Positions 7,436 through 59,156 of a stretch of 64,000 nucleotides of DNA are shown here, piece after piece. The stretch comes from Natronosalvus amylolyticus. GTDB taxonomy: Archaea; Halobacteriota; Halobacteria; Halobacteriales; Natrialbaceae. How positions within the stretch are numbered: position 1 is the first letter of the stretch; every line of letters begins with the position of its first letter. The stretch spans positions 248,001 to 312,000 of the forward strand of contig NZ_CP101156.1 in the NCBI RefSeq assembly GCF_024298845.1. Direction: 5' to 3'. A model generated the notes under the pieces. The model searched no databases. It was given only the letters and a program-made list of their open reading frames with translations, and was not told where the DNA came from. The position numbers were made by a program, and so were the translations under genes.

Positions 7436-7743
7436 TCCTCGAGTGATACGGTTTCCTGTGGTCGCACAGGTGATTTTCGACGCCGAGAGGGCGACTACCA
7501 GTAAACACTACAGCAGATCGTATGAGGTGGCTGTGAACTCACTCGGAGTCAAATCGGTCGAAACTCACCCTTCAACTGACCTGGAGAGGACAGAATTTTC
7601 GTCCGGTTTCGAAACACTCGCGTTGCTATCGATGGATTTCTTCGCCATTTGAGCGTCGACGTGGCAGGCGCGGTCGGGTATTGGTAGACAGACGCTAGCA
7701 GGCCGACACGTTAAAGACTATTTGTCCCCTTAGAAGGGACACG
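7436..7743. other. Intergenic region, no gene seen
   Basis: 308 bp without a convincing gene. The right end holds the promoter of the following DUF457 gene. Confidence 0.4.
7711..7716 (+). promoter_or_regulatory. TATA-like element of the DUF457 gene
   Basis: TTAAAG centred about 30 bp upstream of the ATG at 7744, which fits an archaeal promoter with a leaderless or nearly leaderless transcript. Confidence 0.35.
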
Positions 7744-11050: not shown

Positions 11051-11140
11051 ATGGACGACTCGTTCCGTCACCTATCCGGACGGAGTGCCCGCACGTACAT
11101 CACTGATGAAAAGCGGACCGTGGATCGCAGAAACCAGTGA
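11051..11140 (+). CDS. Possible 29-residue leaderless small protein
   Basis: ATG at 11051 to TGA at 11140, encoding a basic peptide beginning MDDSFRHLSGRSARTYITDE. A TATAAT-rich sequence (11027-11036) lies about 15-24 bp upstream, and a second copy overlaps the start. The peptide has no recognisable family and the frame is short enough to occur by chance. Confidence 0.2.
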   Translation: MDDSFRHLSGRSARTYITDEKRTVDRRNQ

Positions 11141-11368
11141 TAGGTTTCGTTGTGATAGTAGCGAACAGCGACCAGCCGGCTCCGTCACTAACCGGCACAC
11201 AGTTACAACAGTTCGCATGAACTGACCAATTCGACGTGATAAATTCTGCATGAGAGCCTCGAGTGACCAACCGACCCTCAACTGCCGTCTCGAAGGTCTG
11301 ACCAACAAAAGAACGGCGCTGTCGAGTTTTCGTTGAGGATAGCTGTTCAGCGTTGCATAAGCCTCACT

Positions 11369-31385: not shown

Positions 31386-32303
31386 TCACTCGAGGCCGTC
31401 TGGGTTGCTCGCCCGTTTGATCGTCGTCCAGTAGATTCCGGCGAGGACGACGATGCCGCCAGCGACCGTTATCAGGTCCGGAACCTCGGTTAACAGGACG
31501 AACGCGAGGATGGTCGAGCCGACGGGTTCGCCCAGCCAGGCGACACTCACGACGACTGACTCGAGGTACTTGAGCGTCCAGTTGACGACGGTGTGACCGA
31601 ACACCCCGGGGCCGACCGCCATCGCCAGAAAGAGCAGCCACTCACGTGGCGGGTAGGCCAGATACTCGTGGCCCTGAACGCCGACGAGTGCGAGCAGCGT
31701 GATGGTACAGGCCGTGTAGACGACGGTAACGTACGGGAACAGTGAGACGCGCTGGCGGATCGACCGGCCCGCGAGCACGTATCCTGCGACCGTAACCGCC
31801 CCGAGGACGGCGAGTGCGTTTCCGTACCACGTTGCGTCAGCAACGGGTGCGTCTCCCGCGCCGCCGAACGACATCGCGGTTGCGCCGGCAAATGCGACGA
31901 GCAGGCCGGCAACCGTCGTTCGGCCGATTCGCTCGTCGAGCACGAGCCACGCGCCGATAGCGACGAACAGCGGTTGGGTTTGAACGAGCGTTACGCTCGC
32001 GGCGACGCTCGTGTAATTCAGACTTTCGAACCACGCCGCGAAGTGAATCGCGAGGGCGATACCGGCGATAGCCGCCAGCCCGAGATCACGGGCCGAGAGC
32101 CTGGCAAACTCGTGGCGGTAGCGGACGAACGCGACCGGCGCGACAAGCAACGTGGTAAACAGCACGCGATACAGCGCCGCGATCGAACTCGGGGCAGCGC
32201 TCCAGCGGACCAAAATCGCGCTGGTGCTCGCCGCAAAGACGGCAAACGCGAGCGCGACGGTCGGGGTAACCTCGAGGTCGGCCTGACGGAACACGTCGCT
32301 CAC
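31386..32303 (-). CDS. EamA/DMT-superfamily transporter
   Basis: A 305-residue membrane protein of ten predicted spans in two EamA repeats (about residues 14-145 and 165-295). Family features are the N-terminal SAILVRWSAAPSSIAALYR and, in the second half, AVGPGVFGHTVVNWTLKYLE and LGEPVGSTILAFVLLTE. Drug/metabolite transporters export amino acids, nucleotides or other metabolites; specificity cannot be read. The nested palindrome at 32371-32507 lies upstream. Confidence 0.87.
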   Translation of the reverse strand: MSDVFRQADLEVTPTVALAFAVFAASTSAILVRWSAAPSSIAALYRVLFTTLLVAPVAFVRYRHEFARLSARDLGLAAIAGIALAIHFAAWFESLNYTSVAASVTLVQTQPLFVAIGAWLVLDERIGRTTVAGLLVAFAGATAMSFGGAGDAPVADATWYGNALAVLGAVTVAGYVLAGRSIRQRVSLFPYVTVVYTACTITLLALVGVQGHEYLAYPPREWLLFLAMAVGPGVFGHTVVNWTLKYLESVVVSVAWLGEPVGSTILAFVLLTEVPDLITVAGGIVVLAGIYWTTIKRASNPDGLE

Positions 32304-32370
32304 ATACGTGACCGGGGTGAAAGCAGTATCGAATCCGCCGAGATTGAGTAACCCGAAGGGTTGCGATGTT

Positions 32371-32507
32371 CGGCGAGTTCACTGACTGAGACGGTTTACT
32401 GTAGTCTCTTACAGATGATTGCCGGCGTCGTGCGGGCAATCACCGGTAAAAAGTTACAGTAAACCGTATGACTCGAGCGAAACGAGAGAGGGGAAGTGAA
32501 CTCGCCG
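32371..32507. repeat. 137-bp nested palindrome
   Basis: Three nested inverted repeats: outer CGGCGAGTTCACT (32371-32383) with AGTGAACTCGCCG (32495-32507); middle ACGGTTTACTGTA (32391-32403) with TACAGTAAACCGT (32455-32467); inner GATTGCC (32417-32423) with GGCAATC (32435-32441). All three pairings are exact. A degenerate relative of the middle part lies at 39653-39730. It sits between the SRPBCC gene's 3' end and the EamA gene's 5' end, both on the minus strand. Confidence 0.8.
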
Positions 32508-32515
32508 AGAATCAC

Positions 32516-33031
32516 TCACTCTGGAGCGGCCGGTGGTTCGAGTGTGGAGGTCGACTCGAGTGCCTCACGCGTCCGGGCGTGGCGGTCGCGAAACATGCCC
32601 TCGAAACCGAGTTCCGAAAACGGGCTGAGGGGATCGGTGAACCCACCTACTGGGAGTTCGTATTCGACGTGATCTCTGAGGACCGTCTCCGAGCCGTCGG
32701 CGAAAAACGAGTGGGTGTGGACCCACGTTTTGAACGGGCCGTGCACCATCTCGTCGACGAAGTATGCCCGGCCAGGTTTCTCGACTCGCTCGGTGATCAC
32801 CGACGTCCAGTACTGGCGCGGGCCAACGCCGAACGGACGGATTGAGAGCGAGAGCTCCGACCCGGCCTCGAGTATCTCCGGGTCCGAGTCGCCGTCCGGC
32901 CCCATGACGGACTCGACCCGCAATCCCATCCAATCAGGAGTCAGTCGTTCGAGTCCGGCCGATGTCGAGTGAAACTGCCAGACGTCGTCGAGGGGTGCGT
33001 CGATTCGTGTCTCACGCTCGTAGGTGGCCAT
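32516..33031 (-). CDS. SRPBCC family (START-like) protein
   Basis: A 171-residue START/Bet v1-like fold protein. It begins MATYERETRIDAPLDDVWQF, the first strand and helix of the family, and contains FVDEMVHGPFKTWVHTHSFF and a long C-terminal helix FEGMFRDRHARTREAL. Such proteins bind hydrophobic ligands or act as polyketide cyclases; the ligand is unknown. The sequence resembles haloarchaeal cyclase/dehydrase proteins. Confidence 0.82.
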   Translation of the reverse strand: MATYERETRIDAPLDDVWQFHSTSAGLERLTPDWMGLRVESVMGPDGDSDPEILEAGSELSLSIRPFGVGPRQYWTSVITERVEKPGRAYFVDEMVHGPFKTWVHTHSFFADGSETVLRDHVEYELPVGGFTDPLSPFSELGFEGMFRDRHARTREALESTSTLEPPAAPE

Positions 33032-39624: not shown

Positions 39625-39645
39625 CCACGGAGTTTGCTTCCGTGG
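39625..39645. terminator. Hairpin downstream of small wHTH gene
   Basis: CCACGGA (39625-39631) pairs with TCCGTGG (39639-39645) across a seven-base loop, 88 bp after the gene's stop. There is no T run after it, so terminator function is uncertain. It could instead be the end of a decayed mobile element. Confidence 0.3.
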
Positions 39646-39710
39646 CCTGATAGGTTTACTGTCGTCTCTTCCCGAAATTGCACTGTGACGGATGAGGATC
39701 ACCGGTGAGC

Positions 39711-39853
39711 AGGTACAGCAGGACGTATGAAAGCCGGTGCAGGTACAGCAGGACGTATGAAAGCCGGTGCAGGTACAGCAGGACGTATGAAAGCCGGTGC
39801 AGGTACAGCAGGACGTATGAAAGCCGGTGCAGGTACAGCAGGACGTATGAAAG
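39711..39853. repeat. 30-bp tandem repeat array, 4.8 copies
   Basis: Four identical 30-bp units beginning AGGTACAGCAGGACGTATGA at 39711, 39741, 39771 and 39801, followed by 23 bp of a fifth. There are no spacers, so it is not a CRISPR. The unit begins with the right end of the degenerate palindromic element at 39653-39730. Identical copies imply recent amplification. Confidence 0.92.
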
Positions 39854-58067: not shown

Positions 58068-59156
58068 TTAGCTGACAGTCGTTTCCAGTTCTGCGGCCAG
58101 TTTCTGTAACTGAACGATTCGCTCGTCAGTTGGGGGATGAGAACGCGTTTCGACGTGAAACGCATCGTCGTCTTCGGCCGATACCTGGCTCCTCCACTCG
58201 AACCCGTGCGGGAGAAAACACATCCCATCGAGGCCGCGATACCTGGGCAGCCTCGAGGGTACCGTGTCGCCGGCGAGGCGGGCGTCTTCGCTCGGTACCG
58301 TCGCCATCCCGTCGAGTCGCTCGAGCGCACTCGCGAGTGCGGCCGGGTCGCCGGTGACGTGGGCGCTCGCCCGGTCGGCGACGAACTCTCGCGCTCTCGA
58401 GAGGCGGCGACTGAGAAAGACGACGGGAGCGGCGAGCACACCGAGGACGACCCCGCCGAGCACGATCGTAATGGCGCCAGCGACGATGAATTGTCCGAAC
58501 CCGCTGACGCTGAGCAGTGGTGCATCGATGAACGTCGACGCGAGAACGTAGCTCCCCATGATTACCAGCGTGTACACGTACGGCCGTGTCCAGGCGGGCA
58601 ATCGCTTCCCGAAGACCACGCGTTCGTCAGCGACCAGTGCCGGGAGAAACGAGGCGAGCGTCAACACCAGTGCATCGCGATTTTTCAGGTGGGCGAGTTC
58701 GTGTGCCAACACCGCATCCAGCTCCGCCGGCTCGAGCGACTCGAGCAACCCGTCACTGACAACGATCGTTCCCGACCGGAGGTCACCGATGGCCAGACTG
58801 TTCGGCACCTCGCTCGAGGCGATAGCCACAGCCGGAGGAGCCATATCAAAGCCTGCCGACAACCGAGTAACTCGAGCGTGGAGGTCAGGATACATACTTT
58901 CGTCGACCGTCTCGGCGGCGGCTTCCGCCAACAGTTCCTGTCGGGTGTAAACGATCTGTACCCAACACAGGACAAGAACGACCAGGAACCCTGAAAGCGC
59001 GTAGCGTCCCAGGGTCGATCTCACGCCAAGGTGCGTCCAGAGTGCCGCCGTCCACGGATCCAGCAGGGCCACGACGGCCAGTGAAAAAACCACGTTAATC
59101 GCGAGGATGGCAGCGAGGGTCCCGCCAATCTGCCGACCAGTCGTGACCGCGCTCAT
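58068..59156 (-). CDS. M48-family membrane metalloprotease (HtpX-like)
   Basis: A 362-residue membrane zinc protease. The active site HELAHLKNRDALVLT is near residue 150 (HExxH), with the third ligand glutamate in AREFVADRASAHVTGDP near 255. Four or more spans lie at about residues 10-32, 50-68, 190-210 and 220-248. HtpX degrades misfolded membrane proteins. ATG at 59156. The next operon begins 133 bp away, divergently. Confidence 0.87.
   Translation of the reverse strand: MSAVTTGRQIGGTLAAILAINVVFSLAVVALLDPWTAALWTHLGVRSTLGRYALSGFLVVLVLCWVQIVYTRQELLAEAAAETVDESMYPDLHARVTRLSAGFDMAPPAVAIASSEVPNSLAIGDLRSGTIVVSDGLLESLEPAELDAVLAHELAHLKNRDALVLTLASFLPALVADERVVFGKRLPAWTRPYVYTLVIMGSYVLASTFIDAPLLSVSGFGQFIVAGAITIVLGGVVLGVLAAPVVFLSRRLSRAREFVADRASAHVTGDPAALASALERLDGMATVPSEDARLAGDTVPSRLPRYRGLDGMCFLPHGFEWRSQVSAEDDDAFHVETRSHPPTDERIVQLQKLAAELETTVS

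Follow-up and report, generated by a model that had tools for sequence, protein, structure and literature searches.

The window, a 64,000-nucleotide stretch of the Natronosalvus amylolyticus genome, contains an intergenic region in which three exact inverted repeats lie between two minus-strand genes, as the earlier note had placed them. The features of the locus are given below.

31386-32303, minus strand, EamA-like transporter gene (PF00892, 3e-29)
32337-32512, minus strand, host relic with the outer 13-bp inverted repeat, related to sequence 3' of tRNA-Ala genes; approximate boundaries
32371-32383 / 32495-32507, outer inverted repeat, 13/13 exact, centre 32439
32387-32389, plus strand, left copy of the target-site duplication TGA
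32390-32468, plus strand, palindromic mobile element of 79 bp, aligned with 25 other copies in the same genome; boundaries from a pre-insertion paralogue (L026)
32391-32403 / 32455-32467, middle inverted repeat, 13/13 exact, centre 32429
32417-32423 (GATTGCC) / 32435-32441 (GGCAATC), inner inverted repeat, exact, centre 32429
32469-32471, plus strand, right copy of the target-site duplication TGA
32516-33031, minus strand, polyketide-cyclase/SRPBCC-like gene (PF03364, 5e-8)

The earlier note had described the repeats as exact and concentric over 137 bp. All three are exact, but only the middle and inner repeats have a common centre, from which the centre of the outer repeat is offset by 10 bp. 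When mismatches were allowed, the middle and inner repeats formed a single arm pair (43 nt, 77 %; 32384-32426 / 32432-32474) and the outer repeat an arm pair of its own (19 nt, 89 %). The symmetry of the region is far beyond chance expectation: the RNA folds of the two strands were 8.9 and 9.4 standard deviations below those of 200 dinucleotide shuffles, none of which (0/200) matched the fold of the region.

A paralogue in the same genome (L026, C1, approximately 1157.9 kb) has the same flanks, 89-91 % identical, and lacks the element. The aligned paralogue reads GTTCACTGAC-TGA-CTCGAG, with only one TGA, whereas in the window the 79-bp body has a TGA on either side; this comparison fixed the body at 32390-32468. 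The outer inverted repeat belongs to the host sequence. Sequences related to this host were found with a tRNA-Ala gene close by at seven of the eight distinct places scanned (L026 and L160 are one place, G000:C1 at about 1157.7-1158.0 kb), and the match includes in part the tRNA 3' end itself. The sequence of about 105 bp adjoining the tRNA-Ala genes (L026/L160, L161-L164, L166 and L169) was observed to carry repeated and inverted tRNA 3' ends. It is probably what remains of an attachment site used by integrative elements, and the palindrome in the window would overlie a displaced copy of it. The nested palindrome is two things stacked, a 79-bp mobile element within an older palindromic relic.

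In the sister genome G004 approximately 175 bp (about 32338-32512 of the window) are replaced by about 8, with flanks 94-96 % identical on both sides, and the spacers at the orthologous position are similarly short in G001, G006 and G007, so the relic and the element are together absent from these four relatives. The spacer of G002 has its own, unrelated sequence. At a second site, G004 has a copy (L087) and the N. amylolyticus genome has none; the length of the element-free site corresponds to a single triplet, which nevertheless reads AGA and not TGA. In a third comparison (L105 of G004) N. amylolyticus has a partly deleted copy instead of an empty site, and in a fourth (L099) no orthologous flank was found in the N. 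amylolyticus genome.

A BLAST comparison of the region with its own genome returned 55 matches including itself, nearly all of them to a 77-nt core and, as this core is palindromic, often on both strands. The 13-base core of the middle repeat, searched with up to two mismatches, had 52 occurrences on one strand and 55 on the other, in comparison to 9 and 15 for the reversed control. The core recurs with its inverse, and the outcome that the earlier note named as a refutation, a unique core with its symmetry lost in relatives, did not occur. A search profile was then built from an alignment of 26 copies from the same genome; the corresponding covariance model (R1) was used mostly as a sequence profile because RNAalifold gave only 7 pairs on the copy alignment and the full palindrome lacked covariation. 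With this profile the N. amylolyticus genome gave 138 strand matches at E<=1 and 111 at E<=0.001, the latter corresponding to 65 separate places, of which C1 has 58 and C5 has 7. Four copies of the family were detected in the window.

7438-7531, plus strand, profile match including flanks, TGA on either side
11132-11226, plus strand, weak match (E 0.0005), TGA on either side
32381-32477, profile match to the nested palindrome
39642-39736, plus strand, more degenerate profile match

Among 61 genomes (N. amylolyticus and 60 relatives), 27 contained profile matches at E<=0.001; two congeners had at least 68 matches each and three had none. Exact end motifs occurred 85 times in G004 and not once (0) in the reversed-pattern control. 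The combination of TNA and exact ends was present 176 times in G018 and 144 times in G019 (control 0), and was not found in G001 and G007. A scan of genome contigs for near-consensus ends returned 18 loci, all from Natronosalvus hydrolyticus AArc-curdl1 or the MAG Tc-Br11_E2g14. The relatives with copies include Natronosalvus, Natronorubrum, Halomicrobium and Haloarcula, and copies are carried by plasmids such as pHmuk01 of Halomicrobium mukohataei and those of Natronorubrum bangense and Haloarcula sinaiiensis; records of Halostella and Salinibaculum matched the element at 75 %, and the phage records searched gave no match. Judged by this distribution, the 79-bp palindromes appear to form a large family of very small mobile elements in haloarchaea.

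The element has the ends TACGGTYTRCTGT...ACAGYARACCGTA and is almost entirely one imperfect palindrome. The 26 copies from N. amylolyticus align over approximately 97 positions with a mean column identity of 75 %, and the length of the core is 76-77 bp in 26 of the 36 copies counted in this genome. The body length of 79 bp is also held by the copies of Halomicrobium and Haloarcula. The central loop lies in like orientation relative to the arms in 24 copies and in the opposite orientation in 23 (47 of 81 copies could be scored), so the element seems to invert its centre, as would be expected with pairing or recombining arms. A second palindromic element with the ends TAGTAGCCAGTGAAA...TTTCACTGGCTACTA and apparently a TA duplication was observed within copies of the 79-bp element in the N. 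amylolyticus genome (L025, C1 at about 780.5 kb; L039, C1 at about 1.742 Mb; L051, C1 at about 1.138 Mb). In another genome (G019:C1:1214764-1214792) two copies of the 79-bp element stand back to back with one TGA/TCA triplet common to both.

The triplets to the left and right of the element were identical in 52 of 81 copies (TCA 26, TGA 24, TTA 2); these copies come from five groups of loci, and some of them are not independent, since N. amylolyticus and G004 have three or more loci in common. TNA stood both left and right of the element in 62 copies; for these, the 52 agreements compared with a shuffled mean of 26.3 and were reached in 0 of 20000 shuffles. Agreement was found in 16 of the 20 best G004 copies and in only 15 of the 36 copies from N. 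amylolyticus. With the target read as TGA, it was preceded by C in 38 of 50 cases and followed by A or G in 44 of 50.

The supposition in the earlier note that the palindrome may be mobile was borne out by the repeat family itself, with its numerous copies, recognizable ends and 3-bp target duplications, by the two element-free sites that represent its single-copy counterparts and by its patchy spread between relatives. The mobility of the element is well supported. The sequence at 32390-32468 is very probably (a probability of roughly 0.88) a copy of a DNA element that is MITE-like, has no transposase of its own and is moved in trans. The element is short (79 bp) and non-coding, has terminal inverted repeats of 13 bp, exact in the window copy, is flanked by a TNA duplication which a pre-insertion paralogue reveals, and is multi-copy with insertion polymorphism. 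A transposase supplied in trans would recognize the element ends and make staggered cuts, 3 bp apart, at T-N-A in the target; insertion would thereby duplicate the triplet, seen as TGA, TCA or TTA. In the window the target would have been a TGA in the loop of the older palindromic relic, and the jump into this loop would give the palindrome its nested look. Later on, copies would diverge and lose parts, and their central loop would come to point either way, as though the long arms paired occasionally.

Elements of the IS1031 group of the IS5 family duplicate TNA, and the Tourist MITEs of the PIF/Harbinger type have a 3-bp TNA target duplication. The 79-bp element resembles both in this duplication and differs in that no such transposase was tied to its ends in the loci scanned. 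No transposon with the element ends was found at 30 of 75 PF01609 transposase loci, those scanned in five genomes, at the unpaired G004 ends that were scanned or in 200 of the 222 kb of the Halomicrobium plasmid pHmuk01. Two ends that lie 0.79 kb from each other in G004 C11, considered as a candidate parent transposon, proved to belong to two separate copies. Exact ends were present in 54 viral contigs, and because none had a mate within 4 kb and none had a GC content above 55 %, these matches are regarded as chance.

A literature search, with subscription papers, supplements and ISfinder outside its scope, returned no description of the element family. The closest paper found (PMC3119063) defines MITEs, PATEs and SMRs in Haloquadratum. 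In that paper the H. walsbyi MITEs are likewise short and non-coding, have terminal inverted repeats and a target duplication, and occur in many copies with a patchy distribution between relatives. In comparison to these MITEs, the element has no parent transposon with matching ends among the loci scanned, its body is almost one palindrome of 79 bp across haloarchaeal families, and many of its copies sit on stop codons.

The small mobile repeats (SMRs) of Haloquadratum, whose inverted ends are unlike those of known transposons and which spread by an unknown route, often into mobile elements or palindromes, provide a different classification that is possible but rather unlikely. No parent transposon was found in the PF01609 loci, viral contigs and plasmid scanned, and the window copy lies within another palindrome. 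SMR-A and SMR-B (PMC3119063) also resemble the element in size (about 110 bp, with the SMR-B member HqIRS41 only 80 bp long), in their prominent inverted ends, in having no known transposon with those ends and in inserting into other elements. The paper reports SMRs as lacking a target duplication, whereas the element has a clear 3-bp duplication of TNA, and many of its copies lie at gene ends rather than within other elements. That the element is a bidirectional transcription terminator or a conserved structured RNA, spread or retained because of a function at the 3' ends of genes, is improbable. Such a role would be suggested by the strong hairpin on both strands and by the many copies at gene ends, but the 26-copy alignment gave a covariation score of 0.111 in comparison to 0.109 for the shuffles, with 165 of 500 shuffles as high; the pairs changed on both sides numbered 7 against a shuffled mean of 7.9, and 76.8 % of the cells were paired against 77.3 % in the shuffles. 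The Rfam covariance models gave no match in the palindrome and one sub-threshold chance match outside it. Moreover, copies are missing from close congeners and carry target duplications. The long hairpin envisaged by the earlier note can form in single strands, but as the copies have no compensatory base-pair changes beyond the level of the shuffles, a conserved RNA hairpin is unsupported; the pairing is what palindromic DNA yields by itself.

A palindrome of the REP or PATE type, moved by a Y1 (IS200/IS605) transposase, is very improbable. Like REP elements and PATEs, the element is a dispersed intergenic palindrome, and PATEs are common in haloarchaea (PMC3119063), yet according to that source PATEs and IS605-type elements have neither a target duplication nor terminal inverted repeats, and the element has both; the target duplication contradicts this reading. 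That the whole 137 bp of the triple palindrome might be one designed unit, e.g. an operator binding a dimeric protein in steps, can hardly be entertained. Three exact inverted repeats do lie in a single intergenic region, but the outer one has a separate centre, is absent from the 30-nt flanks of the other 25 copies and occurs elsewhere without the insert; the L026 paralogue contradicts a single unit. The stepwise binding proposed in the earlier note found no support, since the outer and the inner symmetry are of separate origin. The striking triple palindrome is explained as a stack of two events.

The position of the MITE-like element relative to genes was considered in the annotated 200 kb of pHmuk01, where the profile detected 9 distinct copies at E<=0.01. 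At 6 of these 9 a flanking triplet is the stop codon of an annotated gene (binomial p = 1.6e-5). An even spread of copies over stop codons and intergenic TGA/TCA sites, 99 and 1155 in number according to an incomplete gene table, would put 7.9 % of them on stops. When the weakest copy (E 0.005) was omitted, 5 of 8 were on stops (the computed p = 3e-4 refers to 5 of 9). The Haloarcula sinaiiensis copy is also on a stop codon, and the two Natronorubrum bangense copies are not. In the set of 81 copies a flanking triplet ends an open frame of at least 80 codons in 36. The corresponding counts were 84 among 493 CTGAR sites of these loci (Fisher p = 2e-7) and 163 among 1110 random TGA/TCA triplets; here a stop was defined by the open frame alone, without a gene call. 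As both controls include intragenic sites, simple purifying selection may account for some of the excess. At the copy at 32390-32468 no flanking triplet ends a long frame. A very different palindrome of similar length with TGA on either side, perhaps a separate subfamily, was noticed on a stop codon at L304:8996-9091 (pHmuk01 58996-59091).

The stop-codon niche of the element is suggestive. Insertions there are harmless because the duplication restores the stop, and the element may either target stops or simply persist at them. As a tentative idea, this could be a haloarchaeal element specialized on stops: TNA insertion in C-TSA-R contexts would let the duplication rebuild TGA and would place the palindrome directly behind genes, where it could act as a portable gene end or terminator, while the transposition machinery, possibly via a hairpin or cruciform, would account for the constant length of 79 bp in different families and for the freely oriented loop. 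The niche, if true, would offer the family a simple means of spreading in a gene-dense genome while leaving genes intact, and its copies provide ready-made places for testing whether palindromes set the ends of archaeal transcripts.
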